Shown here in pieces: positions 4,901-24,971 of a stretch of 33,683 nt of DNA (positions are counted from its first letter, which is position 1; each line of letters begins with the position of its first letter). The position numbers were made by a program, and so were the translations under genes. Origin of the DNA: Hellea sp. (lineage in GTDB: Bacteria > Pseudomonadota > Alphaproteobacteria > Caulobacterales > Maricaulaceae); assembly GCA_023300105.1 (NCBI GenBank), contig JALZWM010000108.1, positions 1 through 33,683 on the forward strand, given 5' to 3'. The notes beneath the pieces were generated by a model. It was not told where the DNA came from and searched no databases. It saw nothing but the letters and a program-made list of their open reading frames with translations.

Positions 4901-6733
4901 CTAGTTTTGGTTTGCAGACTCAACCCAGTTATCAACGAGTTCCTCTAACACTTTTAGCGGGACAGATCCGTTAGCCAATACAACATCATGAAATTCGCGA
5001 ATGTCAAATTTATCGCCGAGGCGGTCTTCTGCGTCTTTTCGCAAATCTTGGATTTTTAACATACCAATTTTATAGGCTGTCGCTTGGCCGGGCCAGACGA
5101 TATAACGGTCAATTTCGGCGCGCACATCACCTTCGGGATTAGGAATATTGTCGAGGTAATATTGTACGGCTTGTTCGCGGGTCCATTTTTTTGTGTGAAT
5201 ACCTGTATCAACGACAAGCCGCGCAGCGCGGAATATTTCCATTGAGAGGCGTCCAAAATCTTTATAAGGGTCAGTGTAAAGGCCTAACGCCTTTGGGACG
5301 GATTCTGAATATAAAGCCCACCCTTCGATATAGCTTGTATGCCCGCCCAGTGTTCTAAATTTAGGCAAGCCTTCAAGCTCCATCCCAATAGCAATTTGCA
5401 TGTGATGACCCGGTATGCCTTCGTGATAGGCGAGGGCTTGCATTAAGTAAATTGGCTGCTCTTTTACATCCTTTAGATTGACATAATATGTTCCAGGCCG
5501 AGACCCATCTGCGGCGGGGCGGTCATAAAAGGCACCAAAGGCCGTATCTTCTCTAAAGGGTTCGACGCGTTTGACGACCATATCCGCTTTGGGTTTGGTT
5601 ATGAATAATCCGTCTAGTTTAGATTTCATATCATCAATAATTTGAGTGGCTTCGATGATGTAACTTGCGCGGCCTTCATCCGTGTTTGGCAGCGTAAATT
5701 GTGGGTCCGTGCGTAGGAAATCGAAGAACTCTTTGAGCGAACCTTCGAAACCAACTTGGGTCATGATTTCGCGCATTTCGTCTTGTATACGTGCGACTTC
5801 TGTTAAGCCTATATCATGTATCTCTTGTGCGCTCATATCTGTGGTGGTGTAGTGACGTAGCCGCGCTGCGTAATAGTCTTCCGCATTTGGGAGTTTCCAA
5901 ACGCCGTCATCTTTACTCGCCCCGTCTTGGTGACGCTTAAACATATCAATCATGTCAAGATACGCGGGTTGAACGGAGGTCAAGAGAGCTGATTTCGCTT
6001 CGTCTATGAGTGCGTTTTTTTCGTCGTCTGAGACATCCAGTTTTTCAAACTTCGCTTTTACATCTGCGAAGAGAGGGCTGTCTGCGCCTTCGGAGAAAGG
6101 TGCACCTGTAATGATATTGCGAGAGGCATCTGAAACTTTAGCATAAACAAATTTAGGGAGGATAACGCCATTCGTAAATTGAGCTTCTGCCCGCTCAATA
6201 TTCTGCCCCATATAAGTTTGAAAGGCGTTTAAACGCGCGATGTAATTGCGAGCATCTTCCACATTTTCTACGGTTTGGTAATTTATAATAAATGCAGGCA
6301 GGTTAGCATGAGGACCATTCATATGTTGAAAGACATATTCGTTAGTCGCAAATTCATGCGTTGCTAGGGCGTCCTCTGCTGCGAATTCATATAAGCGATA
6401 TGATAGCGCTGTTTGAGAATTTAGCCGGTCAATGTCAAAGTCGCGACGCATTTCAGCGAGCCAAGCTTTTTGCAATGCGGCGTCCTCATTCATGGCAAGT
6501 TGTGAGACGTCATCTAACTTATCTCTATTGGTTTCTTTGCCAAGATAAGTTTGATTCATCGGGGATCTCGCTAATTCATCTTGAAATCGCGCTTCGAACC
6601 ATTCATTGAGAGCTTGGCTTTGAGATTGAATGATTTCGGCTTTATCCGGAACTTTCTGACTCGCCGGCTGGCACGCAGACAAGACGAGCCCCGCCGATAA
6701 GGCAGATGTAAGTAAGAAAGTTAAATGCCGCAT
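4901..6733 (-). CDS. DUF885 lipoprotein, probable zinc metallopeptidase (copy 2)
   Basis: A 610-residue paralogue of the preceding entry and the first gene of the pair in transcription order. It has a lipoprotein signal (MRHLTFLLTSALSAGLVLSAC). The metal-binding motif HEGIPGHH starts at H437, with the downstream IEGWALYSE glutamate segment and PGQATAYKIGMLKIQDLR near the C-terminus. Conserved stretches shared with copy 1 include FEGSLKEFFDFL, NIITGAPF and RAARLVVDTG. The N-terminal 100 residues differ most, which suggests an old duplication with separate substrate preferences rather than a recent copy. It diverges from cckA across 129 bases. Function is inferred from the family; no specific substrate can be named. 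Confidence 0.88.
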   Translation of the reverse strand: MRHLTFLLTSALSAGLVLSACQPASQKVPDKAEIIQSQSQALNEWFEARFQDELARSPMNQTYLGKETNRDKLDDVSQLAMNEDAALQKAWLAEMRRDFDIDRLNSQTALSYRLYEFAAEDALATHEFATNEYVFQHMNGPHANLPAFIINYQTVENVEDARNYIARLNAFQTYMGQNIERAEAQFTNGVILPKFVYAKVSDASRNIITGAPFSEGADSPLFADVKAKFEKLDVSDDEKNALIDEAKSALLTSVQPAYLDMIDMFKRHQDGASKDDGVWKLPNAEDYYAARLRHYTTTDMSAQEIHDIGLTEVARIQDEMREIMTQVGFEGSLKEFFDFLRTDPQFTLPNTDEGRASYIIEATQIIDDMKSKLDGLFITKPKADMVVKRVEPFREDTAFGAFYDRPAADGSRPGTYYVNLKDVKEQPIYLMQALAYHEGIPGHHMQIAIGMELEGLPKFRTLGGHTSYIEGWALYSESVPKALGLYTDPYKDFGRLSMEIFRAARLVVDTGIHTKKWTREQAVQYYLDNIPNPEGDVRAEIDRYIVWPGQATAYKIGMLKIQDLRKDAEDRLGDKFDIREFHDVVLANGSVPLKVLEELVDNWVESANQN

Positions 6734-10798: not shown

Positions 10799-13440
10799 CC
10801 AGCCTCAGAGACATCCGTAAGCAATTTTTAAATTACTTTGAAGGGCAGGGTCACACTATTGCGGCTTCTAGCGCGCTTGTGCCTGATAATGACCCAACGC
10901 TTCTTTTTACCAATGCTGGCATGGTTCAGTTCAAAGATTATTTTACGGGCGGGACAACGCCGCCTTATCCTCGGGCTGTTACATCTCAAAAATGTGTACG
11001 GGCTGGCGGGAAACATAATGACCTTGATAATGTAGGCTACACAGCGCGGCATCACACATTTTTTGAAATGCTCGGAAACTTTAGTTTTGGCGATTACTTT
11101 AAAGCTCAAGCTATCGAGAATGCTTGGAACCTTGTCACTAAAGATTTTGGGTTTGAAAAAGAAAAACTCTTGGTCACCGTCTATCACACAGATGATGAAG
11201 CTTTTGATCTTTGGAAGAAAATCGCGGGACTTTCTGATGATAGAATTATCCGTATTTCAACGAATGATAATTTTTGGGCTATGGGCGATACGGGACCGTG
11301 TGGTCCATGTTCAGAAATATTTTATGACCACGGCGCGCATATCCCGGGCGGCCCTCCAGGGTCTGCTGATGAAGATGGTGATCGTTTTATTGAAATTTGG
11401 AACTTGGTTTTCATGCAGTTCCAAAGACATGCTGACGGTACGCAAGTTCCGCTGCCTAAGCCCTCTATTGATACGGGCATGGGGCTAGAGCGTACAGCGG
11501 CTATCTTGCAGGGCAAACATGACAATTACGATATTGACCTGTTCCAGAACTTAATCGGCTCATCTGTTGATCTCACAGGAGTAAAAGCAGAAGGGGACGC
11601 GATGTTCTCTCACCGCGTTATTGCGGACCACCTGCGCTCTTGCTCATTCTTGATGGCTGACGGCGTCTCTCCGTCTAATGAGGGCCGAGGCTATGTGCTG
11701 CGCCGCATAATGCGCCGCGCGATGCGCCACGCGCATATTCTAGGCGCAAAAGATCCGCTGATGCACCGTCTTGTCCCAAGTTTAATAAGCGAAATGGGCG
11801 ATGCCTACCCAGAGCTTGGCCGCGCTAAGGCCTCGATTGAGGCCACCTTTGAACAAGAGGAAGAACGTTTTCGCCGGACATTGGGGCGCGGGACCGCTTT
11901 GCTTAATGAGGCGACACACTCACTTGGCGATGGTGACACGCTTGACGGCGAAACAGCTTTTAAACTTTATGACACCTTTGGCTTCCCGTTGGACCTGACG
12001 CAAGATGCGTTAAAGTCAAAAGGAATTGCCGTTGATACAGCGGGTTTCGACGCGGCTATGGCGCGACAGAAAGAAGGTTCAAAAGCGGCTGGGTTTAAGT
12101 CTGGGGATATGGGCAATGATGATGTTTGGTTAGCGGCAAGAGAAGCTAACGGCGCAACAGAATTTACTGGCTTTGAGAGTTTAACCGCTGAGGATAGTGT
12201 TCATACTATATTTGCAGACGGGAATATCGTTGAAAACGCACAAGACACTGACTTGCAAGATAATAGCGTGATGTTTGTAACTAAGAACACACCGTTTTAT
12301 GCCGAGAGCGGCGGGCAAGCGGGCGATAAAGGCATAGCTAAGTTTCCTAATGGCCAAGTTGTTGTGAGCGATGTTTTGAAAAAGGCAGGTGATTTACACG
12401 TTCATATTGGAAAATTAACAGGTAAGATATCAAAGGGTGATACCGTGCATCTCTCTGTCGAGTCGGATAACCGTAAACGTACTATGGCTAATCATTCATC
12501 GGCGCATCTTATGCATGAGGCTTTACGTAGAGTATTAGGGGAACATGTCACGCAAAAGGGGCAGATGGTTGATGGAGACCGTATTCGTTTTGATATATCC
12601 CACGGCGCTGCGATAACGCGCGAAGAGCTAGGTAAGGTTGAAGATCAGGTCAATCAGGTCATTCAACAAAATGCAGACGCGCAGACACGGCTTATGAATC
12701 CTGAGGCCGCTATGGAAGCGGGTGCTATGGCTTTGTTCGGTGAAAAATACGGCGATGAAGTGCGCGTGTTATCATTGGGCGAGCCGATAGATAATGATCC
12801 GAAAGCTTACTCAGTTGAGCTTTGCGGCGGCACCCATGTCGCGCGGACAGGTGATATTGCCTTATTCAAAATCGTGTCTGAAGGCGCGGTTGCCGCAGGT
12901 ATTCGCCGTGTTGAGGCTGTCAGCGGCGAAGCGGCCAGACAGTATCTCGAAACATATGCAGGTTATACGCGCGCAGCGGCGGATACGCTAAAATCAAAAC
13001 CCGAAGATGTGCCGGCGCGCATTACGGCGCTTTTAGCTGATCGTAAGAAGCTCGAAAAAGAACTTTCCGAAGCTAAAAAAGCATTAGCTTTAGGCGGTTC
13101 TGGCGGCGCTGCGAAATCTGAAGAAATAAACGGCGTGAAGTTTATCGGCGGCGTGCTCGACGGCGTTTCAGGAAAAGACCTCCGCGCGATGCTTAATGAC
13201 CAACTCTCCGCTATTGGCTCTGGCATTGTGGCCTTTGTCGCCAAAGACGGCGAGAAAGTGGCTGTAGCGGTTGCTGTGACAGACGACCTCATCGGCACGC
13301 ATTCTGCGGCAACGCTTGTGAATGCAGGCGCTGAGAAAGTCGGCGGGCGCGGGGGCGGGAAACCGGGCATGGCGCAAGCTGGCGGGACAAATGTGGCGGG
13401 TGCGGATGATGCGTTAGCGGCGATTAAAGCCGCGATTTAG
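10795..13440 (+). CDS. alaS: Alanyl-tRNA synthetase
   Basis: Charges tRNA-Ala with alanine. I chose ATG 10795 ([11 protein letters not shown]) because family members begin here and the putative promoter lies within the longer open frame; this gives 881 residues. Class II core motifs are clear: [46 protein letters not shown] and [11 protein letters not shown]. The editing domain has HSSAHLMH and the late CGGTHV zinc and proofreading residues. The C-Ala domain ends in glycine-rich [15 protein letters not shown]. It is transcribed separately from recA. Its stop overlaps by four bases the stop of the convergent subtilase gene, so antisense interference between them is possible. Confidence 0.97.
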
Positions 13441-14651
13441 CGCTCTGTGTTGCAAATATATTTCGCATTAATCAATCCAAGGCCAAAAATTGTATCTTTT
13501 CCTTTTGGACCAAGATCTGTCGCGGAGCGCGAAAAATACTGAATTATATCATCGCGGTTTTTATAATCCTTCATGCCTAATGATGAGGCTATCGCAGCTG
13601 TGATAAAAGGCGCCGCGATAGAGGTCCCCGATATATATCTATTTTGGCCTTCAATATTGATATATATGTCAACGCCGGGCGCTGAAAAATCGACATGATG
13701 CCCTCGCACGGCTTTGTCGTAAATATCGCCTTCAACATCAACGGCTGTTGCCGCCAAGACTGTATTATAAGCGGCAGGAAATTGAGGTGGCGAATTTTGC
13801 CCTTGGTTTCCAACGGCGGCCACAATCAAAAATCCCTTGTCAGAGGCCACATCAAGGGCGGCTTCTAAAACTTTGTTTGGCGGGCCTGACAGGCTAATAT
13901 TGACGACTTTTACGTCATTTAAAAGCATCCAGTTAAGGGCTTTAAGTATGGCGGTAGGGCTTGAGTAATCATTTCCATTTTCGTCTTGTTCAACCACAGC
14001 GGCTGAATATAGCATAACGTTTTTAAGACGTGCAGGGTCAGTTAATATCGCGGCAATAGAGGTGCCATGGCGCACGGCCGTTTCCGAGGGGGCTTGCTCT
14101 ATGAATGATTTATTATAGATTTTTGCAGATGTCTGTTCTCTAAACTTTTCAGATAAGCCGCCATCAATAATACCAATTTTGACAGGCACATCACACCCTG
14201 ACTTAGGCCAGCTCAGCATTTCATTAGCAAATGTCTTGGGGGCTTGAGACGGTAAGAAAGAAACCTTAGAGCTGTTGAGTGAATATTTGTTAAGCTCTCC
14301 TACGGAGGACTTAGGCTGAAGCCTTTCAAGCTCGAGCGATGCATCCTTGGGACTTACGCCAGGAGGGCAATCAAATGTGAGCAGATAGAGGTCGAGGCCT
14401 GCTAACTTTTCTTGCTTATGGAGTGTATAGCCCCATTCCAAAGCTTGGCGTTCTAAATCAACAGCAACCGACTTACTCTTAACTGTGGCGACAACCTGTG
14501 AACGGGTGACCAATTCAGAAGATGCTTCGTTGATTGCAGGCTTCGTAATTTGAGCATTTGGCGCGCTCTGGACTTGGGGTAAGCTTTCACAAGCTGTCAA
14601 AAACAGAGCTAAAACGGAACTCACTAATAGAGGGGATTGTAAAATTTTCAT
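13437..14651 (-). CDS. S8 (subtilisin-like) serine protease lipoprotein
   Basis: A 404-residue subtilase with a lipoprotein signal (lipobox LTAC, Cys21). The catalytic triad is complete: D163 (GIIDGG), H195 (RHGTSIAA) and S344 (SGTSIAAPF). The oxyanion Asn is N282 (AAVGNQGQ). Residues about 55-130 form a compact alpha/beta region ([17 protein letters not shown]...) resembling a subtilase propeptide. It should act at the periplasmic face of the envelope. It is the last gene of the leftward locus ECF sigma, anti-sigma, beta-barrel, protease. A sequence like the ECF promoter (14677-14701) lies just upstream, and AGG about eight bases before the ATG serves as ribosome-binding site. A role in processing or sensing for the adjacent anti-sigma is inferred from context. 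Confidence 0.9.
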
Positions 14652-14676
14652 AATTAATACCTATGTCAATTCCTTT

Positions 14677-14701
14677 GACGTGCGAGACACTTAAAGGTTC
14701 A
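14677..14701 (-). promoter_or_regulatory. ECF-type promoter before the S8 protease gene
   Basis: On the minus strand TTGAACCTTT is followed, 15 bases after TGAACC, by CGTCAAAG. It resembles the other two sites of this locus (16-base spacer, CGAC) and the general ECF pattern GGAAC...CGTC. It overlaps the end of the beta-barrel gene. Confidence 0.5.
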
Positions 14702-15985
14702 ATCAAAATTAAATTCCGTCGATAATATAAAGACCTGTGCATTCGAATTAAAACTATTCGCATTATAATCTGCATATTCTAACCCAAATCGGACGCTTTT
14801 CCACTTCCCACTAAGCTCGAAGTCAATTTCTTCCCCGAAATTACTATTTCCTTCATCAGATTCAAACCAATGATAGCTTGCGCCTGCGCGAATGTCCTCA
14901 AATATTCCAATTTGCCTGAGCTTATAATTTGCAGATACCGAGAAATCACGTAAGCCTTCATCTGGTATCGTTAAAAATTGATCTGCAATACCGTTCAGCC
15001 TATGCAAAGTCCCCAAGGGCGTCTGTAGAGCTTGCCCATTGTCACTGCCAAGATGCTCAGCTTTGACTGTAAAGTCATAATTGCGATATTCCACCCCCAG
15101 CTTTGCGGCGGCATAGAGAGTAGCATAATCATTGGGATTGTCGGCAAAATCTGTTTGCCTTGCGATAGAACCGTCCCAATTTAACCCCCAATCCGTCCAC
15201 TTATGGCGTCCATTAATGCGAACACCTAATGTTGAAGAACTCAAATCTGAGACCCGGTTTTCGTCAGGCCCCGTTTCAAGATCAAGCCCATAATAAAAAG
15301 CCACAAGACGTCCTAGGGGCGTGATAACACCGTAATTTAAAATCAAAGAGTCACCATCAAATTCGCCGAGAGGACTGTCATTTCCAAATTGCCTTTGCAC
15401 ATGCCCTACATAGGCGGCATCTAAAAGGCCGGGCCCAATTTTGCGTTCAAGTCTCGCCGCGTCAAAAGTTTGCTCATTGTTCCGAAAATTCCAATGTCCA
15501 ATGAAGCGCCAATCATCCAAAGCAATTCTTTGACGACCTAAAGTGAGCCGTGTATTTGGTATGATGTCAGTTTGAAATTGAAGCCGATTAATTTCAAAGT
15601 TTTCAGGGTCAGAAATAACAGGACGGCCTATTTGACCATTGAGAGTGTCGTTGAAGTTTTCTAAAAAATTTTTAGCCCCTTCAAATTCAATTAAGGCGGT
15701 AGAGTTTTCAAAAATATTAAACTCGAACCCCAATTTAATACGCAAGGATAAAGCCTCTGCTGATTGCTCAAATGCGTCTTGATCGACCGTATGATATCTA
15801 AAGCGAGCATCGCCAAAGCTATTGATCTTAATGGGTTTAAAATCGTCTTGCCCAAAAACAGGCGCCGGCGCCGTATTAAATAGAAAGGCTAAAAGACAGG
15901 AGAATAGTAAGCCATTCGCTTTTCTAATGTGTGCTGCAAGATGTGTAAGTATCGACAAGGTTCTCTTTCGAAATGAGTGTGCCAA
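14699..15985 (-). CDS. Alginate-export-type outer-membrane beta-barrel protein
   Basis: A protein of about 428 residues with an uncleaved-length signal region (GLLFSCLLAFLFNTAPAPVFGQ) followed by alternating beta-strand pattern to a C-terminal FNFD. LGRQRIALDDWRFIGHWNFRNNEQTFDAARLE is typical of the alginate-export (AlgE-like) porin family, single-chain barrels that pass anionic polymers or other solutes. I cannot name the substrate. The longest frame starts at TTG 15985 and overlaps the anti-sigma gene by 62 bases; no good ribosome-binding site is visible there, and a TTG at 15958 is an alternative. The overlap implies translational coupling with the anti-sigma gene. Being inside an ECF operon, it is likely induced by the envelope signal that the sigma factor answers. 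Confidence 0.75.
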   Translation of the reverse strand: MAHSFRKRTLSILTHLAAHIRKANGLLFSCLLAFLFNTAPAPVFGQDDFKPIKINSFGDARFRYHTVDQDAFEQSAEALSLRIKLGFEFNIFENSTALIEFEGAKNFLENFNDTLNGQIGRPVISDPENFEINRLQFQTDIIPNTRLTLGRQRIALDDWRFIGHWNFRNNEQTFDAARLERKIGPGLLDAAYVGHVQRQFGNDSPLGEFDGDSLILNYGVITPLGRLVAFYYGLDLETGPDENRVSDLSSSTLGVRINGRHKWTDWGLNWDGSIARQTDFADNPNDYATLYAAAKLGVEYRNYDFTVKAEHLGSDNGQALQTPLGTLHRLNGIADQFLTIPDEGLRDFSVSANYKLRQIGIFEDIRAGASYHWFESDEGNSNFGEEIDFELSGKWKSVRFGLEYADYNANSFNSNAQVFILSTEFNFD

Positions 15986-16541
15986 TCATAGATAAGCAAT
16001 TTTCCTTATCAGGAAAGGACACAGTATAAATACCTAGTTTACTAGGGCCAGATATAATTTGAGAATTGTGATTGATTAGTAAATCAGACACGTCCGTAAA
16101 ATTGACATGAGATTTAAAACTTAACTGCAAAGAAACACCCGATGCCTCTGTCTCGCTCGCGAGTTGGTAATGTTTGGAGGTTTCAGAGTTTGTAATATAA
16201 AAAGCCTGCCCAATTGAAACGCAGGCGAGCGCTAAGGCAGCTATTTTCCACATCCCTCCTAAAACAGTTATGTTTTTGGTCTTTGTTTGGACGGTTGAAG
16301 TTTCAGTGTTTTTAGACTCTAAATTATCTATGCTGCGCGATAGTCTAGCCCAGCCAAATTCAAGGCCTGATGGGTCTGGCTCATCGGCTCTTGCCGCCAT
16401 AAGATTACGCTGAAACTCTATATCGGCTTGAAAATCGGGATTTTCGTTTAGATAAGCCTCAAACTCTGCGGTTTGCGCGGCCGAAAGCTCGCCGCGTAAA
16501 TAGCGAGGAACAAGCAATGAAAATGTTTCTTCATGTGTCAT
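15924..16541 (-). CDS. Membrane-anchored anti-sigma factor with propeptide-like periplasmic domain
   Basis: A 205-residue protein encoded just after the ECF sigma gene. The N-terminal cytoplasmic part (1-90) contains the acidic LRGELSAAQTAEFEAYLNENP motif common in FecR/RskA-like anti-sigma domains, without a zinc-binding HxxxCxxC. One membrane helix spans about 97-116. The periplasmic part (about 138-205) runs SFKSHVNFTDVSDLL...IISGPSKLGIYTVSF...LISKENLVDTYTSC. Its GPSxxGIY motif and beta-alpha-beta rhythm recall subtilase inhibitor/propeptide domains. It also carries two cysteines (C182, C202) that could form a disulfide. It should hold the sigma factor inactive until a periplasmic signal, possibly involving the adjacent S8 protease. 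AAGG precedes the ATG at good spacing. Confidence 0.8.
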   Translation of the reverse strand: MTHEETFSLLVPRYLRGELSAAQTAEFEAYLNENPDFQADIEFQRNLMAARADEPDPSGLEFGWARLSRSIDNLESKNTETSTVQTKTKNITVLGGMWKIAALALACVSIGQAFYITNSETSKHYQLASETEASGVSLQLSFKSHVNFTDVSDLLINHNSQIISGPSKLGIYTVSFPDKENCLSMIGTLISKENLVDTYTSCSTH

Positions 16542-16574
16542 CAGGCTGCCTTTTTAAGTCTGTACATTATCTTT

Positions 16575-16600
16575 GTCGATTTGATTGTAGAAAAGGTTCA
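16575..16600 (-). promoter_or_regulatory. ECF-type promoter between sigma and anti-sigma genes
   Basis: Minus strand: TTTGAACC, 16-base spacer, CGACAAAG. It is nearly identical at both ends to the site before the lipoprotein gene (17295-17320), with equal spacer length. It would drive anti-sigma, beta-barrel and protease independently of the sigma gene. Confidence 0.6.
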
Positions 16601-16608
16601 AACTAAAA

Positions 16609-17172
16609 TTACTTATTTAAATTTTGTAAGATGTGTTGAAGACTACGTTTTGCGTATAATATTCTCGTTTTAATCGTGCCTTCAGGACATCCTTCAAGCG
16701 CGGCAATTTCTTTATAGGTCAAATCTTCAAAAAATGAGAGATGTATCGCGCGGCGATGATCGGGTTTTAATTGCTCAACCGCCTTTCTCACAACGCTCGT
16801 CTCTTGTGAAAGATTAAATAATTCGGCAGCGTTTAGCGCGTCATCCTTTATATCAATGAGCTCATCAGAATATTTAAGGCGCGCATGTTTTCGGTTTCTG
16901 TCTATTGATTTATTTTTAGCAATCGAAAATATCCATGTTTTAAGAGACGAACGTCCTTCAAAACGATCTGCTTTGCGCCAAACCTCTAACATCGTATCGT
17001 GAATAATATCAGCCACATCATTTGGGTCTGCGAGAAATAACCGAATGAAGCCGTTTAAAGCAGGTGCATAGACTTTATAAATTTCATTCATGGCATTTTT
17101 ATTGCCCTTAACAACTCCCTCAATCAGGGCTTTATCTAATTCCCGTCTTTTGTCCGGAGCCATATGTTGCAT
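16609..17172 (-). CDS. ECF-family RNA polymerase sigma factor
   Basis: A 187-residue ECF sigma factor with only regions 2 and 4. Region 2 reads NDVADIIHDTMLEVWRKADRFEGRSSLKTWIFSIAKNKSIDRNRK, with the usual W and DxxQ-like core for -10 recognition. Region 4 has LKPDHRRAIHLSFFEDLTYKEIAALEGCPEGTIKTRILYAKRSL, a helix-turn-helix that reads the -35. It is followed by its presumed anti-sigma. Two in-frame ATGs (17172 and 17163) are possible, neither with a clear Shine-Dalgarno sequence. No copy of the local TGAACC...CGAC motif is visible directly before this gene, so it may not autoregulate while its partners do. Confidence 0.93.
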   Translation of the reverse strand: MQHMAPDKRRELDKALIEGVVKGNKNAMNEIYKVYAPALNGFIRLFLADPNDVADIIHDTMLEVWRKADRFEGRSSLKTWIFSIAKNKSIDRNRKHARLKYSDELIDIKDDALNAAELFNLSQETSVVRKAVEQLKPDHRRAIHLSFFEDLTYKEIAALEGCPEGTIKTRILYAKRSLQHILQNLNK

Positions 17173-17294: not shown

Positions 17295-17320
17295 TGAACC
17301 TTTCCCGTTGCTCCAACGAC
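17295..17320 (+). promoter_or_regulatory. ECF-type promoter before the beta-helix lipoprotein gene
   Basis: TTTGAACC, 16-base spacer, CGACATAG. The same two boxes and spacing occur on the minus strand at 16575-16600. It predicts a start near 17328 and a leader of about 85 bases. The rest of the 239-base divergent region is AT-rich with no other clear element. Confidence 0.6.
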
Positions 17321-17411
17321 ATAGGAGGGCAAGGCCAAAATTACTCCCTTGATTTAGTCTTCTATCCACTCCCGATCTACACGATCGATAACGCATTAAA
17401 GGACATTCAAA

Positions 17412-18989
17412 ATGAATATCAAAAAAACACTTTTATATAGCGTGACTGGCTTCATTACGGCTGCCAGTCTCGTTGCTTGCGGCGATACCAGTTCCATTGT
17501 TACCACACCGCCTGTTGCCGAACTGCCTGCGCTACCTGCTACTCCAGCAGCGGACCCTCAAGGGGCTTGCCCAGCAGTCGGAAACCTTGTGCCGGTTGAA
17601 GTTGCTGCGGGGCAGTGCACTATAAGCGGCGTTCTTGATCAAAATGCAACACTCACAGCTGATATGACATGGTTCTTGGATGACCGTCTTCAAGTCGGAA
17701 ATAACCAATTCAGCTCTAGCCTCACAATAGACGCAGGAACGCAAATCCGCGGATCTGGTACAGATCATATTCTTGTGTGGCCTGGCTCAACTATACTGGC
17801 CAATGGCACCTCTACAGCGCCTATCCAAATGCTATCTGATGATGATGATACATCTGGTTCAGGTGAATGGGGGGGGCTCTTCTTACGCGGTTTTAACGGT
17901 TTGCCTACACTAACGGGTACGCAGGGTGCAAATGTGCTTGATTATGTCGTTGTCTCCGAAGCTGGCGCCCCTGTCGATGTGACTATTGATGGCAACACTG
18001 TTCAATATCAGGATAATATTGTCCTCAATGGGGTTGATAACACCACTACACTCAGCTTTGTTCAGTCACATTACTCAGCGCGTGACGGATTTCATATCCT
18101 AAATGGTGATCCGCGCATGTCATGGCTCCTATCAACAGCGGCAACACGCGACGGTGTTTGGTACCGGGATTTCACGGGCTTGATTAAAGATTTAATGGTT
18201 ATCCATAATCCTGATGCAGGCCGCGCAGGTATTTATGCCAGTGAAACAATTGCAGGCGATTCAAACCCTCGTATTGTTAACGCCACATTAGTTGGCCGCG
18301 CTTCTCAAAGCATTAATGCGACCAATGATGATAGCGCCAGCCAAGTCGGAATTTTATTCGCCGATAACACTGACCAAATTCGTATGGCAAATGTTCTGAT
18401 TGCGAATTTCACCAATGGATGTTTCATTGCTAATGACGGTGCTGACCTCTCAGCTATTGATACAGCTATCCCTGGACCAAATTATTTGGACGGCGTTCAT
18501 TGTGCCAATAATAATGGCGGCAATGGCGGGTTCGGACCTATCCGTTCCTCAGCAATTGCTGGATTCCCAGCGGGGACAATCGCCCCGAATAACTCCAATG
18601 GTGACGGCCTTGTTTATTATAATGGCGCGGCTAACCCCATTGTATTCTCAGGCTCACTTACAGACCTATCTGCAAGCTTCACAGCGAATTGGTACTTAAA
18701 TAACATTGGCGGTATCGCGAATGGTTTATTGGGAACAGAAGCCAATATCTTAAATGGCTTCCTAGATGGTGACACCAATAATGACGGCGTGTTAGATGCA
18801 TCTGATAATGGCTCACCCTTTATAATTGGTGATAATGCCTTTAATAGTGACGTTGCTGCTGACACTTTTGGATATGACCTCACGCATGTTGGGGCGTCGC
18901 GTAGCGGTAATCCAGCCAATGCATCTCAATTTGATGGTTGGACGATCGCAACAGGTCCAGGCGAAGGCTTCTTGGTTCCAGCGCCTTAG
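17412..18989 (+). CDS. Surface lipoprotein with beta-helix-like fold
   Basis: A 525-residue secreted lipoprotein (signal ending in LVAC, Cys23) with a Pro/Ala-rich linker (about 28-50). The remainder is dense in Asn, Gly, Asp and Thr with short beta-strand repeats such as LTIDAGTQIRGSG, ILVWPGSTILANGTSTAPIQM and GEWGGLFLRG. This pattern is seen in right-handed beta-helix surface lipoproteins of marine Gram-negatives. An EF-hand or thrombospondin-3-like calcium loop, DTNNDGVLDASDNG, begins at D454. Function is unknown; binding of a polymer or surface display is a guess. AGGA lies eight bases before the ATG. It diverges from the ECF sigma gene and carries the local ECF promoter motif, so it is a likely regulon member. 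A strong hairpin follows. Confidence 0.75.
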   Translation: MNIKKTLLYSVTGFITAASLVACGDTSSIVTTPPVAELPALPATPAADPQGACPAVGNLVPVEVAAGQCTISGVLDQNATLTADMTWFLDDRLQVGNNQFSSSLTIDAGTQIRGSGTDHILVWPGSTILANGTSTAPIQMLSDDDDTSGSGEWGGLFLRGFNGLPTLTGTQGANVLDYVVVSEAGAPVDVTIDGNTVQYQDNIVLNGVDNTTTLSFVQSHYSARDGFHILNGDPRMSWLLSTAATRDGVWYRDFTGLIKDLMVIHNPDAGRAGIYASETIAGDSNPRIVNATLVGRASQSINATNDDSASQVGILFADNTDQIRMANVLIANFTNGCFIANDGADLSAIDTAIPGPNYLDGVHCANNNGGNGGFGPIRSSAIAGFPAGTIAPNNSNGDGLVYYNGAANPIVFSGSLTDLSASFTANWYLNNIGGIANGLLGTEANILNGFLDGDTNNDGVLDASDNGSPFIIGDNAFNSDVAADTFGYDLTHVGASRSGNPANASQFDGWTIATGPGEGFLVPAP

Positions 18990-19973: not shown

Positions 19974-21860
19974 GTGAACGTGTTGAAAAAAATATCTAAA
20001 ACAAGAGCCGGTAAAGCTACCAAGTCACCTGTACGGAAGACACTGTCATCCATGCGAAAAGCATGGATAGGGGTCGGACTGCTCAGCCTCTTCGTCAATG
20101 TCCTGATGTTGACGGGGCCACTATATATGCTGCAAGTCTATGACCGCGTCATAACAAGTCAGAGCATGTCAACTTTGGTTGTGCTCTCTATTTTGATGGT
20201 CGCCATGTATGCCTTTATGGGTCTAATGGACTTCCTGCGCTCACGTATTTTAGTGCGCATTGGTAATTATGTTGAGAGCGAATTAAGCGCGCCTATTTTC
20301 AAATCATGGTTATCTCAAGGTGTGAAGGGCAATATGAGACATGGGCAGCGGCCGCTTCAAAGCCTCGCGACTCTAAAGCGGTTCTTGACGGGCGCCTCAC
20401 CAACAACATTTTTCGATATACCTTGGACGCCTATATATATTGCCGTCATCTTTATGATTGACTGGACTCTTGGTGTCTTCGCGATATTTGGCGCTCTTGT
20501 TGTTCTTGCGATTGCAATTGCCGCTGATTTTCGTACGCGCAAACAAGAAGCTGAGTCTCAATCAGCGCGTTCAGATAGTCATGCTTTCACACAGAAAATT
20601 TATGCGAACTCCGAAGCCATCATTTCTATGGGCATGGTTGGCGATATGACTGAAAAATGGAACGGTATAAAAAGTTCTGGCGATGCTAGCGAGCTCTCCG
20701 CAAGTGATATTTCTGGCGGCGCTACGGCAGTTTCAAAAGCTTTCAGAATGTTCCTACAGTCAGCTATTCTAGGCATAGGCGCTGCTTTAGCTGTGCAGCA
20801 AATCGTGACGCCGGGCGCAATGATTGCAGGGTCGATTATTTTAGGACGGGCTTTAGCGCCAATCCAAATGGTGATTAGTCAATGGAGAGGCTTCATTCAA
20901 ACGAAAGGGGCTTATCGCGACCTGAATAGTTTTTACGAGAGCTTGCCTGAAGAAATAGAAAAAGTGGTCCTACCAACGCCGACGGGTAAAATAAGTGTAC
21001 AAAAGCTCTCAGCAGGACCTCCAGGCTCAAAGACAGCGACGCTTAAAGGTTTGAATTTTGACCTTATGCCTGGTGATGGGTTGTGTGTTCTCGGTCATAG
21101 TGGCTCTGGTAAATCATCTCTTTCACGTCTTCTTGTTGGGGTTTGGATGCCTCAGATGGGGTCTGTCAGACTAGATGGCGCGACACTTGATCAGTGGGAT
21201 AATGCTGCCCTTGGACAACATATCGGCTATCTGCCTCAAACGGTTGAACTCTTTGATGGTACTGTTGGTGAAAATATTTGCCGCTTCAAGTCTGATGTAC
21301 ATTCAGATTCTATCATCCGGGCAGCTCAAATTGCAGGTGTTCATGAGTTCATTCTAAGCCTACCAGATGGATATAGTACAAAGTTAGGGACAGGCGGTGT
21401 TATCCTCTCCGTTGGACAAGTCCAACGCATGGCATTGGCCCGCGCGCTCTTTGGTGACCCTTGTCTCGTTGTTCTTGATGAGCCTAACTCAAACCTCGAT
21501 GCTCAAGGTGACAAAGCTTTGAATGCCGCAATCCAATATATGCGGGCTCAAAACAAGACCGTCATTATTGTTTCCCACCGTCCAACGGCTATGGCGGCTG
21601 TTAATAAAGTTCTCGTTCTTAAAGGCGGGCAACAAGAGAAATTCGGTCTGCGAGATGAGGTTCTCAATGTCGGTAACCGTGTCCCAGCAGGACAAACTAT
21701 GCAGCAGTTACAACGTGCGCAACAACAGGCGCGTCAAATACAACAGGCGCATCAAGTACCTACAGCGCAGCAAATTTCCAGAGCTCAACAGTATCAAAGT
21801 CAATCTGTGAACACGGCGACTGCGATAGCAGCAAATCCATATCAGAACCAGCAGGCATAA
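19974..21860 (+). CDS. Type I secretion ABC exporter (permease/ATPase, PrtD/HlyB type)
   Basis: A 628-residue inner-membrane exporter. A transmembrane domain (about 30-310) precedes an ATPase domain with Walker A GHSGSGKSS (374-382) and Walker B LVVLDEP (D502, E503). The signature is LSVGQVQRMALARA (478-482), where LSGGQ is usual. The H-loop is IIVSHRP. Lacking an N-terminal peptidase domain, it fits exporters of RTX-type, C-terminally signalled cargo. The last roughly 55 residues form a Gln-rich tail (QQLQRAQQQARQIQQAHQ...) beyond the normal domain end. The start is GTG 19974, or TTG 19983; neither has a strong ribosome-binding site. Two bases separate it from the adaptor gene, then TolC and the putative cargo follow on the same strand. 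Confidence 0.92.
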   Translation: MNVLKKISKTRAGKATKSPVRKTLSSMRKAWIGVGLLSLFVNVLMLTGPLYMLQVYDRVITSQSMSTLVVLSILMVAMYAFMGLMDFLRSRILVRIGNYVESELSAPIFKSWLSQGVKGNMRHGQRPLQSLATLKRFLTGASPTTFFDIPWTPIYIAVIFMIDWTLGVFAIFGALVVLAIAIAADFRTRKQEAESQSARSDSHAFTQKIYANSEAIISMGMVGDMTEKWNGIKSSGDASELSASDISGGATAVSKAFRMFLQSAILGIGAALAVQQIVTPGAMIAGSIILGRALAPIQMVISQWRGFIQTKGAYRDLNSFYESLPEEIEKVVLPTPTGKISVQKLSAGPPGSKTATLKGLNFDLMPGDGLCVLGHSGSGKSSLSRLLVGVWMPQMGSVRLDGATLDQWDNAALGQHIGYLPQTVELFDGTVGENICRFKSDVHSDSIIRAAQIAGVHEFILSLPDGYSTKLGTGGVILSVGQVQRMALARALFGDPCLVVLDEPNSNLDAQGDKALNAAIQYMRAQNKTVIIVSHRPTAMAAVNKVLVLKGGQQEKFGLRDEVLNVGNRVPAGQTMQQLQRAQQQARQIQQAHQVPTAQQISRAQQYQSQSVNTATAIAANPYQNQQA

Positions 21861-21862
21861 AG

Positions 21863-23173
21863 ATGGCAAAATTACCAACACATATGCAGTATCAGTCAAT
21901 GGATAAATATCTACGCGTGAGTTACGGTAGTTTATTTCTACTGGTTGTGGTTTTCGGCGGGTGGACATACCTTGCAAAAATTCAAGGTGCTGTCATCGCG
22001 ACAGGACAGGTGGCCGTCGAAGGGAAACCTCAAATTGTTCAACATCTCGAAGGTGGCATCGTGAGTAACATCACTGTCAAAGAAGGAGATGTCGTCACAA
22101 AAGGTCAAACTGTTCTCAAATTAGACTCAACAATTTTGAATGCTAACTTGGATGCAGCACAAACAAATTACTTTGAAAACCAAGCGCTGATAAGTCGTTT
22201 GATGGCTGAGAAAACGCGGCAAGAAACAATTTTTTGGTCCGAGAGTTTGCTGCGTAGAAGTAAGTCACCACGCGTGAGGCTCGCGATGAATGGGCAAGAA
22301 CAGCTATTTCATGCTCGGCGTAATGCTCTCGAAGGAGAAATCAATCAGTTTTCCCAACGCATAGAACAGCTAAATGATCAAGACACGGGTCTTATCTCTG
22401 AAATCGAATTTACGGGTTCTGAATTGTCTCTTGTTGAACAAGAGTTTAGCAAGTTGTCTGAACTCCTGCGTCAAAATTTAATTTCTAGGAACCGCGTTAC
22501 TGATTTGGAACGCGATAGAACACGACTTAGGAATGCCGTCTCTAAGTTAAAATCTGACCGCGCAGGGGTCATGAACGGCATCAAAGAAGCTCAAATTCAA
22601 ATTTCTCAAGTTCAACGCCTTCGTAATGAAGAAGTTTTGACAGAACTGCGTCTCGCGCAAACTCAAGCGGATAATTATGCGGAAACTTTAAAGACTGTGT
22701 CGAGTCGAACAAGTTTGGTAAAAATTAAAGCGCCTGCGTCTGGCGTTGTGCATGAAATGACCGCCTCTACAGTAGGGGGGGTGATTGCACCAGGGCAAGA
22801 AATTATGAAAATTATTCCTGAGCGTGAGAGCCTTGTAATCTCTGCGCAAGTCATGCCTGCTGATCTTGATCAGGTGACTTTAGGACAGGATACAAATGTT
22901 ATCTTTTCTTCCCTTAAGCAAGATTCAGCGCCAGAGCTTGATGGGGTCGTTTCATATATCTCAGCAGACGACTTGATAGACCCGATTACCGGATCATCAT
23001 ATTTTGTTGTTGAAGTCGAGATTGCGGATAGACAACTCCCTAAGCTTAATGGCCAATCTTTGGTGGCCGGTATGCCTGCTGATATATTCATTCAAACCGA
23101 AAGTAGGTCTGTTCTCGATTACTTATTAGGGCCGTTAAAGAATACACTCAAAAAGACAATGCGGGATGGTTAA
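21863..23173 (+). CDS. HlyD-family membrane fusion protein of the type I secretion system
   Basis: A 436-residue periplasmic adaptor linking the ABC exporter to the TolC-like outer-membrane duct. It has a short cytoplasmic N-terminus, a membrane anchor at about 19-37 (YGSLFLLVVVFGGWTYLA) and a lipoyl half-motif GKPQIVQHLEGGIVSNITVKEGD. Long coiled-coil helices run about 85-285 (NQFSQRIEQLNDQ..., LSLVEQEFSKLSELL), followed by the second lipoyl half (VKIKAPASGVVHEM) and a beta-barrel domain. The family signature VQHLEGGIV is exact. It begins two bases after the exporter stop and overlaps the TolC gene by eight bases, so the three components are translated as one unit. Confidence 0.94.
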   Translation: MAKLPTHMQYQSMDKYLRVSYGSLFLLVVVFGGWTYLAKIQGAVIATGQVAVEGKPQIVQHLEGGIVSNITVKEGDVVTKGQTVLKLDSTILNANLDAAQTNYFENQALISRLMAEKTRQETIFWSESLLRRSKSPRVRLAMNGQEQLFHARRNALEGEINQFSQRIEQLNDQDTGLISEIEFTGSELSLVEQEFSKLSELLRQNLISRNRVTDLERDRTRLRNAVSKLKSDRAGVMNGIKEAQIQISQVQRLRNEEVLTELRLAQTQADNYAETLKTVSSRTSLVKIKAPASGVVHEMTASTVGGVIAPGQEIMKIIPERESLVISAQVMPADLDQVTLGQDTNVIFSSLKQDSAPELDGVVSYISADDLIDPITGSSYFVVEVEIADRQLPKLNGQSLVAGMPADIFIQTESRSVLDYLLGPLKNTLKKTMRDG

Positions 23174-24971
23174 TCGCATGATAAATTTGATGCAAAACCC
23201 GAGCGTGAGAGCGTTGATTGTTGCTGGCTTAGGTCTAAGCTTTACGGCTTGTATGGCGGAAAACTCTTTACCGCAGGTGCAAAAAAATACCGTAAATCAA
23301 GTGACGACGCCAAAATACGCATCTGCTTATCAGCCTCATAATAGAACGTCATCACCCTATGTCTTAATGGCTCAAAACAACGCCGTCCCTCATTTAAGGG
23401 GTATAGCACAGAACCCGAGAAACGTTCAAAGGGCATATTATCAAGACTACCCAACACAATCTCAAAACCAGTATGGTTCGGCGCGGCGTGTTATGGGGCA
23501 TAACATAACAAAGCAAAACTTTAGTCATCATCTTGATGCGCCTCGCGTTCATCAGTCCAAGCGTCTTAACCATCATCTTGATGAGGGCATGACGCCGCGT
23601 GGCTATTATGTTCAAAAAACTCAATCCCGAACGTCTTTAAATCAATATCAAAGGGCTTCGTTAGTTCAATCTGCTCAACAAAGTGCTCAGGCAAGTGTTG
23701 TCGCGCGGGCTAATTCAGCCACTAGAGTTACTAATGCGGCAACTACGAGATCTTCTGTCTCTACGGTCTCGCCAAATTCGATCCATAACTCATTAATTAA
23801 CGCGCGTGGTGAATCTCCACGCTTGGCTATTGAAAACTTAAGAATTCAAGAAGCTGAAGAGGGATTGGTTCAGGCAGAAGCTCTGAGTAAGGTCCGGCTT
23901 AACTTCGATAGTACAATTGGTGTTAGCCAATCTGAAACAGAATTTAATGTTATTGAGAGGACGGATGCTGATACGCGTTTGAGGCGGGCTGCAAGGATTG
24001 ACCTTTCATTGCCAATTTATCAAGGTGGGATAAATAAAGCTCAAAAAAATGTCGCGAAGGTTGGAATCAAGACCGCAGAGGCGAATTATGAGATTGTTGA
24101 GAGTGCTGTGACTGAGGAAGCTGCAATTGCTCATCTTAACGTCATTCGTGACCGTAAACTCATCCAGGCTTATACGCGTAATGTAGACCTTTTAAGAAAT
24201 CAGAAACAGAATGTGCAAGCTATGGTAAGAGCTGGTGAGAACACAGTTACTGATGAAGCCCTAATAGATGCACGGCTTGCGTCGATTGAAGTGCGGTTAG
24301 AGCAATCCAAAGCTAATCTAGCCATCAGTGAAAGTAATTATAAAAAACTTACTGGGAGTCAGGCTTCATCGCTTGTTACTGTGGGGGCCGTTAAACTTCC
24401 GAGTAGCCTTCAGGAAATTAAAGTGGCCGCACAAAAAAATAACGCACAGATTAAGGCTGGTGAAACACAGGCCGAAGCGGCTTTTCATAATATAGCAGTT
24501 GCAAAGTCTTACGGGCGACCAAAATTATCTTTGCAAGGTGTTTTAAGAACAGCTGAAGGGCAGTCTGAAACTATCAGTAGAGATTCTGCTGCTGAACTTT
24601 TATTGAACCTAAATGTACCTTTGTTGTCTGGCGGTGAAAATAAATCCCGCGTTCGTCAAGCGGTTTTAGCCCAGTCTCGCGCCTTTCTTGAAACACGCGA
24701 GTTACATGATAACCTTAACGAGAGGGTAGAACAGCTCTGGGCGAGTGTTCAATCTGCGCGCCGCAGTAAAGCGCCTAATCAAGCGCAAAAGGTTGCTGCT
24801 CAAAAAGCTTATGAGGCAATTACCAAGCAAAGAAACGCTGGCCTTGCGACATCACTTGATGTGTTATCTGTCGAGCAAACATTACTTGATGCGGAAATTA
24901 ATCTTCTTCAGGCCCAAAACTCTGAAGATGTCGCCCGCTTTCAAATCTTGGGGCTGATGGGCGCATTATAA
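23166..24971 (+). CDS. TolC-family outer-membrane efflux lipoprotein with long N-terminal extension
   Basis: A 601-residue protein whose C-terminal part (about 212-601) is a TolC-type outer-membrane duct: AIENLRIQEAEEGLVQAEALSKVRLNFDS, then the internal repeat with LSLPIYQGG and LNVPLLSGG at the strand ends. It has a lipoprotein signal (LSFTAC, Cys29). Between the signal and the duct lies an extra region of about 180 residues rich in Gln, Asn, His, Tyr and Ser. It carries a duplicated HHLD motif encoded by the 13-base direct repeat at 23526 and 23571. This segment is low in hydrophobics and probably disordered in the periplasm. The start may be ATG 23166 or ATG 23178. It completes the exporter encoded upstream. 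Confidence 0.88.
   Translation: MVNRMINLMQNPSVRALIVAGLGLSFTACMAENSLPQVQKNTVNQVTTPKYASAYQPHNRTSSPYVLMAQNNAVPHLRGIAQNPRNVQRAYYQDYPTQSQNQYGSARRVMGHNITKQNFSHHLDAPRVHQSKRLNHHLDEGMTPRGYYVQKTQSRTSLNQYQRASLVQSAQQSAQASVVARANSATRVTNAATTRSSVSTVSPNSIHNSLINARGESPRLAIENLRIQEAEEGLVQAEALSKVRLNFDSTIGVSQSETEFNVIERTDADTRLRRAARIDLSLPIYQGGINKAQKNVAKVGIKTAEANYEIVESAVTEEAAIAHLNVIRDRKLIQAYTRNVDLLRNQKQNVQAMVRAGENTVTDEALIDARLASIEVRLEQSKANLAISESNYKKLTGSQASSLVTVGAVKLPSSLQEIKVAAQKNNAQIKAGETQAEAAFHNIAVAKSYGRPKLSLQGVLRTAEGQSETISRDSAAELLLNLNVPLLSGGENKSRVRQAVLAQSRAFLETRELHDNLNERVEQLWASVQSARRSKAPNQAQKVAAQKAYEAITKQRNAGLATSLDVLSVEQTLLDAEINLLQAQNSEDVARFQILGLMGAL

Follow-up and report, generated by a model that had tools for sequence, protein, structure and literature searches.

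A propeptide-like domain on a membrane anti-sigma factor is paired with a subtilisin-like protease gene in Hellea sp. and relatives

We analyzed a 33,683-nucleotide stretch of DNA from Hellea sp. (GenBank assembly GCA_023300105.1, contig JALZWM010000108.1, positions 1 to 33,683; hereafter the window) and focused on a minus-strand locus that encodes, in order, an extracytoplasmic function (ECF) sigma factor, an anti-sigma factor, a porin open reading frame (ORF), and a subtilisin-like protease of family S8. The anti-sigma factor ends in a periplasmic domain predicted to fold like a subtilase propeptide, and anti-sigma factors that carry this domain are mostly encoded close to an S8 gene. Our proposal, held with about half confidence, is that the propeptide-like domain serves as a dock for the S8 protease, which cuts the anti-sigma factor as the site-1 protease and controls release of the sigma factor. 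The established part consists of the predicted fold, a family link through relatives, the pairing of the genes, and a promoter element that they share.

The anti-sigma factor ends in a propeptide-like domain

The ECF sigma factor gene (187 aa; 16609..17172, minus strand) matches PF04542 (E 2.3e-15), PF08281 (E 1.1e-12), and TIGR02937 (E 1.6e-30). The gene adjoining it (15924..16541, minus strand) encodes a 205-residue protein with an N-terminal anti-sigma region, one hydrophobic membrane segment, and a C-terminal periplasmic domain, which is the architecture and gene position of a class I membrane anti-sigma factor. In the window copy, the N-terminal region matches zf-HC2 (E 0.0087, Pfam scan) and residues 10-123 match the anti-sigma family NF052375 (E 5.4e-6, NCBIfam scan), both below cut-off, and the most hydrophobic 19-residue stretch begins at residue 93. 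The S8 gene (13437..14651, minus strand) lies two genes downstream, just as had been read from the letters of the window in an earlier note, which we refer to as the original prediction; the porin ORF lies in between.

The original prediction also saw the pattern of an S8 propeptide in the periplasmic part of the anti-sigma factor, quoting it from F142 onward. We modelled this part with AlphaFold2, using 27 family members as the alignment. The modelled domain spans approximately residues 135 to 205 (about 70 residues; 15927..16139, minus strand) and has the order beta-alpha-beta-beta-alpha-beta at a pLDDT of 91.5, with strands at model positions 2-8, 27-30, 37-42, and 62-65 and helices at 14-23 and 45-57. 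It ends, across members, a few to about 16 residues past its last strand. This is the fold of subtilase propeptides and I9 inhibitors, a fold that is unspecific when taken by itself.

A family link comes from relatives of the window's domain. When the 27 domain sequences were scanned alone, 12 matched PF22148 (the fervidolysin prodomain, Fervidolysin_NPro-like) at E<=0.1, with a best E of 1.1e-7, and 13 matched at E<=1. A later and more distant set was scanned as whole anti-sigma proteins and gave 2/33 matches at E<=0.1 and 3/33 at E<=1. Whole anti-sigma factors without a detected domain served as controls; 0/32 matched PF22148 at E<=0.1, and at E<=1 the family was not among the matches listed (25 of 27 families). 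The control scan had initially been run at 0.1 and the domain scan at 1, and both were rerun so that the two thresholds are comparable. Scored singly against PF22148, six of ten relatives matched, and three of the ten passed its cut-off of 21 bits (L019, 28.6; L022, 32.5; L065, 24.3; relatives' loci are numbered with L throughout). The domain profile found nothing meaningful among solved structures (best E 0.32) or in NCBIfam (best 0.038). Taken together, the predicted fold and the matches in relatives, set against none in the controls, bear out the propeptide-like pattern, and the unrelated fold that would have spoken against the original prediction did not appear.

Anti-sigma factors with the domain are mostly encoded beside S8 genes

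An order-wide search matched the anti-sigma factor in 13 of 299 genomes, including the window's own, and each of the ten non-self loci with the domain (L014-L023) has an adjoining S8 gene. Class-wide (385 genomes) and phylum-wide (398 genomes) searches extended the survey. From these we took all 16 other full-length class-wide matches and the new full-length ones among the phylum-wide matches listed; L132 was left out, having no match to the anti-sigma region. As controls without the domain, defined as no hidden Markov model match at 1e-3, we used the 24 top-ranked partial matches of the class-wide search (L072-L095), L024 and L025 from the order-wide search, and L134-L139, taken from the phylum-wide search outside strict rank order. 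With the window uncounted, 55 of 59 loci with the domain have an S8 gene at a distance of 2 kb or less, compared with 3 of 32 without it; the contrast is large, and its Fisher p-value of 3.4e-16 is too small owing to relatedness of the loci. The comparison is also not fully independent, for the profiles that found the loci were built from members of the module and several loci come from one genus. The three control loci with an S8 gene are L134, L025, and L090, and in L134 a divergent copy of the domain can be seen at the end of the anti-sigma factor. When named genomes were scanned separately, 24 loci came up, of which 23 have S8. Five of the 24, judging by the length of their contigs, repeat earlier loci, the exception among them, and the new ones are 19 for 19; they come from Kiloniella, Curvivirga, Tepidicaulis, Microbulbifer, Marinimicrobium, a Hydrogenophaga metagenome-assembled genome (MAG), and a Thermoanaerobaculia MAG, among others.

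In 42 of the 55 loci the S8 gene sits directly downstream of the anti-sigma gene on the same strand with a gap of <100 bases. Within the order to which the window belongs, the two are often separated by a porin gene. The window's genome has one PF00082 match in all, the S8 gene of the locus, and the relative G014 likewise has a single S8 match, inside the module. Chance adjacency, which we considered as an account of the pairing, is rejected by the contrast between loci with and without the domain and by the single S8 match in the window's genome. Across 61 genomes, S8 matches occur in 43 and the anti-sigma factor in 2 of those same 61, so the dependence looks one-way, with S8 common without this anti-sigma factor. 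Homologues of the anti-sigma factor generally occurring without S8 would have told against the original prediction; the survey it called for instead gave the co-occurrence described above.

The four domain-bearing loci without S8 are L062, L129, L131, and L133. L062 also lacks a sigma factor match, and its genome holds another locus, L064, that has S8. In L129, a gene that looks caspase-like by eye (5250-6056) stands directly behind the domain-bearing anti-sigma gene, in the usual place of S8, as if the protease had been swapped. In L133 (5911-7201), two neighbouring ORFs carry a propeptide-like domain, with no S8 in the stretch examined. Gene orientation varies as well: among 55 domain loci in which a sigma gene is present, 9 have the anti-sigma gene reversed relative to it (L014, L016, L017, L018, L020, L021, L023, L059, and L107), an unusual layout that the window and L015 do not share.

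The anti-sigma and S8 genes share a promoter element

Upstream of the anti-sigma gene in the window is an ECF-type promoter element, TGAACC-N16-CGACA (16574..16600, minus strand; 0 mismatches), that ends 32-33 bases before the start codon. A second copy with N15 and one mismatch precedes the S8 gene by 24-25 bases (14676..14701, minus strand). We had initially seen the motif on the opposite strand as TGTCG-N16-GGTTCA and chosen it by eye upstream of sigma and porin genes, some of these stretches being intergenic ones that also precede anti-sigma genes. The stretches upstream of S8 were not used in choosing the motif, and the test is accordingly cleaner for S8.

We scanned nine loci of the window's type for TGAACC-N15-17-CGACA from 120 bases upstream to 40 bases downstream of each listed start. 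Some starts were set by hand (S8 and anti-sigma in L018, porin in L020), and several others are longest-ORF starts. The element was found at the anti-sigma start in 9/9 loci at <=2 mismatches and 8/9 at <=1, and at the S8 start in 9/9 and 7/9, respectively. At the sigma start it occurred in 1/9 (<=2 mismatches) and 0/9 (<=1), and at the porin in 0/9 for both, compared with 2% (<=1) and 8% (<=2) of random segments. The two presumed partners therefore share the element and the surrounding genes do not. In the window as a whole there are 6 matches (<=2 mismatches, N16) against 2.63 expected. Exact copies across the genome are no commoner than a control pattern (5 sites versus 6); two of the five are in the window, two are inside ORFs (LepA and ATP synthase subunit a, by eye), and one is near a contig end. 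We conclude that position, not number, carries the evidence.

A third copy in the window (17295..17321, plus strand; 0 mismatches) faces a divergent gene, 91 bases upstream of it. That gene (17412..18989, plus strand) encodes a predicted 525-residue lipoprotein, with a lipobox read by eye and no Pfam match, that is likely, judging from this element, a fellow target of the sigma factor. In related loci, the element at <=1 mismatch precedes RTX-repeat/CHRD, YceI, and outer-membrane barrel genes (L015:3-3734, L107:6887-8554, L016:2-439, L020:3291-3941, and L018:2971-3690). The nature of these putative targets suggests that the regulon is an envelope or surface programme.

The S8 protease is likely active and has its own prodomain

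The 404-residue S8 lipoprotein is a subtilase by its PF00082 match (E 1.2e-24; 87.6 bits, cut-off 21.8) and its catalytic triad, D163, H195, and S344. These three residues, N282, and Cys21 of the lipobox (LTAC, by eye) are invariant in nine aligned S8 proteins of the module. Over an alignment of 82 S8 sequences, which include 3 from loci without the domain and 5 repeats, the aspartate is kept in 82, the histidine in 81 (one X), and the serine in 80, and the two sequences without the catalytic serine are ORFs cut near contig ends. Residue conservation thus indicates that the enzyme is likely active.

The structure model gives the protease its own N-terminal prodomain (residues 46-125; 14277..14516, minus strand), with strands at 52-57, 76-83, 88-94, and 116-119 and helices at 60-72 and 101-111. 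The order of elements is the same in the models of the prodomain and the anti-sigma domain. The whole S8 model aligns best with pro-subtilisins, pro-Tk-subtilisin among them (2e1p; Z 34.5, rmsd 3.3, 326 residues), and with fervidolysin it reaches Z 32.2 (1r6v; rmsd 3.2, 345 residues). PF22148 matches 5 of 41 S8 N-terminal regions at E<=0.1; the S8 of the window is not one of them.

Distances of the two prodomain-like parts co-vary

We compared sequence distances across 54 loci. After distances of the sigma factor and the anti-sigma N-domain had been removed, those of the anti-sigma periplasmic domain tracked those of the S8 prodomain (partial r 0.316, 0/500 permutations), and in 31 dereplicated loci the link persisted (partial r 0.231, 3/500 permutations). 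The anti-sigma N-domain and the S8 prodomain showed no link (0.042, 105/500 permutations), and the periplasmic domain was weakly linked to the S8 catalytic domain (0.145, 2/500 permutations). Co-variation of this kind, which is modest and depends on the alignment, is as expected if both prodomain-like parts answer to one surface.

A model for control of the sigma factor by the S8 protease, and its alternatives

In the proposed model, mature S8, free of its own prodomain, would bind the anti-sigma domain as it would a propeptide. Bound S8 would then clip the domain or its stalk, and this would be the site-1 cleavage. A protease of the M50 type would subsequently release the sigma factor, which would make more S8 and more anti-sigma factor, so that the response would reset itself. 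When S8 was occupied by other substrates or was still immature, the anti-sigma factor would stay whole and the sigma factor off. A propeptide bound to its own enzyme is normally cut by it, and active subtilases destroy bound propeptides. The window's genome has a match to M50, the site-2 protease family (PF02163, E 8.4e-61). For these two reasons we favour S8 as the starter of anti-sigma destruction, and given the M50 match, S8 could stand in for the usual site-1 step or act beside it, with the rest of the cascade running as usual. The original prediction, in which the anti-sigma factor might be an inhibitor, docking site, or substrate of the protease, is supported in part, namely by the propeptide-like fold, the co-occurrence with S8, and the promoter element common to both genes. 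We see an evenly balanced case for extending the model to a widespread class of anti-sigma factors, in Pseudomonadota and one Thermoanaerobaculia genome (L170), that would read a partner subtilase by means of a propeptide copy, so that maturation or the free amount of the protease would directly set the activity of the sigma factor; a caspase-like protein would replace the protease in at least one lineage.

Several observations weigh against S8 docking and cleavage. Neither the protein scan nor the domain scan gave the window's copy of the domain a match to Pfam, PF22148 included, and its assignment therefore rests on alignment to the family and on the model, by which we place it as a remote relative of PF22148 and not a member. 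In the later set only 2 of 33 members match that family. Foldseek gave the domain model no match at E<=0.001, with rows that mix propeptides and unrelated proteins, and in VIA-align the I9-type inhibitor POIA1 (Z 7.7) is one among many ties. Because the fold is a common superfold, neither search decides the family; of the comparison with I9 and fervidolysin prodomains that had been suggested originally, the shared order of elements stands and a fold search that singles out propeptides does not. Aligned profile to profile, the anti-sigma domain and the S8 prodomain match collinearly, though weakly (P 0.0028, probability 4.4%), and a second alignment, which leaves the last strand uncovered, is still weak (P 0.00078, probability 25%). 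The C-terminal residues of the domain, which would fill the active site, vary across members. On the side of the protease, the oxyanion-hole asparagine is absent from 11 of the 82 S8 sequences (L019, L022, L102, L115, L123, L125-L128, L130, and L170), which keep Asp, His, and Ser, and in these lineages the S8 protein may be less an enzyme than a ligand. As for co-variation, the link between the periplasmic domain and the catalytic domain becomes -0.065 once the S8 prodomain is included, and the anti-sigma N-domain tracks the S8 catalytic domain (0.257, 0/500 permutations), which docking does not explain; the distances thus partly reflect something else.

The main rival is that the anti-sigma factor is a receptor and inhibitor in the style of RsiV, which we consider unlikely, if the least so of the alternatives. 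S8 would bind without cutting; bound S8 would be inhibited, and binding would expose a cleavage site for another protease or else stabilize the anti-sigma factor as negative feedback on the amount of S8. The short tail of the domain after its last strand and the fold that it shares with POIA1 agree with this reading. Ending close to the last strand is also a trait of free propeptides and of POIA1 and other I9-type inhibitors. The variable C-terminal residues and the commonness of the fold count against an inhibitor too. The precedent is RsiV itself, described as an anti-sigma factor that inhibits lysozyme by way of the enzyme's active site and must bind it for signal peptidase to make the site-1 cut (PMC5014341).

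Slightly less probable still is the absence of any direct contact, in which case the sigma factor would simply have S8 among its target genes and the domain would be a generic ferredoxin-like sensor of something else. The common superfold fits such a sensor, a separate promoter element in front of S8 is what an ordinary target gene would show, and the apparent caspase-like gene takes the place of S8 in L129. Left unexplained are the match of relatives to subtilase prodomains and the fact that S8 accompanies mostly anti-sigma factors that bear the domain. It is very improbable that the domain acts in trans as an external chaperone for S8, with the anti-sigma factor reading out S8 maturation: Aeromonas ORF2, the chaperone that helps the subtilase ASP fold in trans, does appear at Foldseek rank 15 (3wqb_B), but the window's S8 has its own well-predicted prodomain and does not obviously need outside help.

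Other genes of the locus

The porin ORF between the anti-sigma and S8 genes is of the Alginate_exp type (14699..15985, minus strand; PF13372, E 3.2e-9). Its listed TTG start (15985) overlaps the 3' end of the anti-sigma gene by 62 bases (15924-15985), and its true start probably lies further in. On the other side of the locus, a type I secretion set (19974-24971) is encoded downstream of the gene for the 525-residue lipoprotein.

Comparison with known systems

ECF sigma factors, anti-sigma factors, regulated proteolysis, and an anti-sigma factor that reads an enzyme (RsiV) are already known, and the new part is the pair formed by a propeptide-like anti-sigma factor and its subtilase. We found no description of such a pair in the literature searched; a large ECF re-classification paper lies outside that search and may mention one. 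A term search of PMC8103513 gave no matches. Taken as a whole, the pairing suggests that cells may sense an S8 protease, or use it in gene control, by a means that is so far unstudied. If the model is true, it would add a second design of enzyme-reading anti-sigma factor beside RsiV and a new use of the propeptide fold, as a receptor rather than a folding aid. Many anti-sigma factors have outside domains for which, to our knowledge, no ligand is known. In the present case a likely ligand, the protease encoded nearby, can be read from the sequence itself, and what the anti-sigma factor senses becomes directly testable.

The DegS-RseA-RseP cascade of sigma-E resembles the locus in its membrane anti-sigma factor, its ECF sigma factor, and a probable site-2 step, for which we have the M50 match. 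The trigger of the cascade is a PDZ-type site-1 protease, whereas our model gives that step to an S8 protease that would dock on a propeptide-like domain. The Aeromonas ASP chaperone ORF2 is similar in being a separate protein that helps a subtilase, and its structure is among the Foldseek rows; we know of no link between ORF2 and a sigma factor. Propeptides of fervidolysin and subtilisin and I9 inhibitors of the POIA1 type share the order of fold elements, relatives' matches to PF22148, and the POIA1 alignment score given above. They differ in that the domain here is on an anti-sigma factor behind a membrane helix, not on a protease or free.

ECF54 sigma genes also adjoin subtilase genes; as presented in PMC8999054, they are proposed to work without an anti-sigma factor and have CHAT and carboxypeptidase neighbours. 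In logic the locus is like RsiV-SigV of Bacillus, in which an enzyme is received by the outside domain of the anti-sigma factor much as by an inhibitor (PMC5014341). No sequence relation was found, the Pfam scan of our anti-sigma factor giving just weak zf-HC2 and gerPA rows with RsiV itself uncompared. The enzyme read by RsiV is lysozyme, whereas the enzyme proposed here is a protease encoded in the same locus as the anti-sigma factor that would read it.

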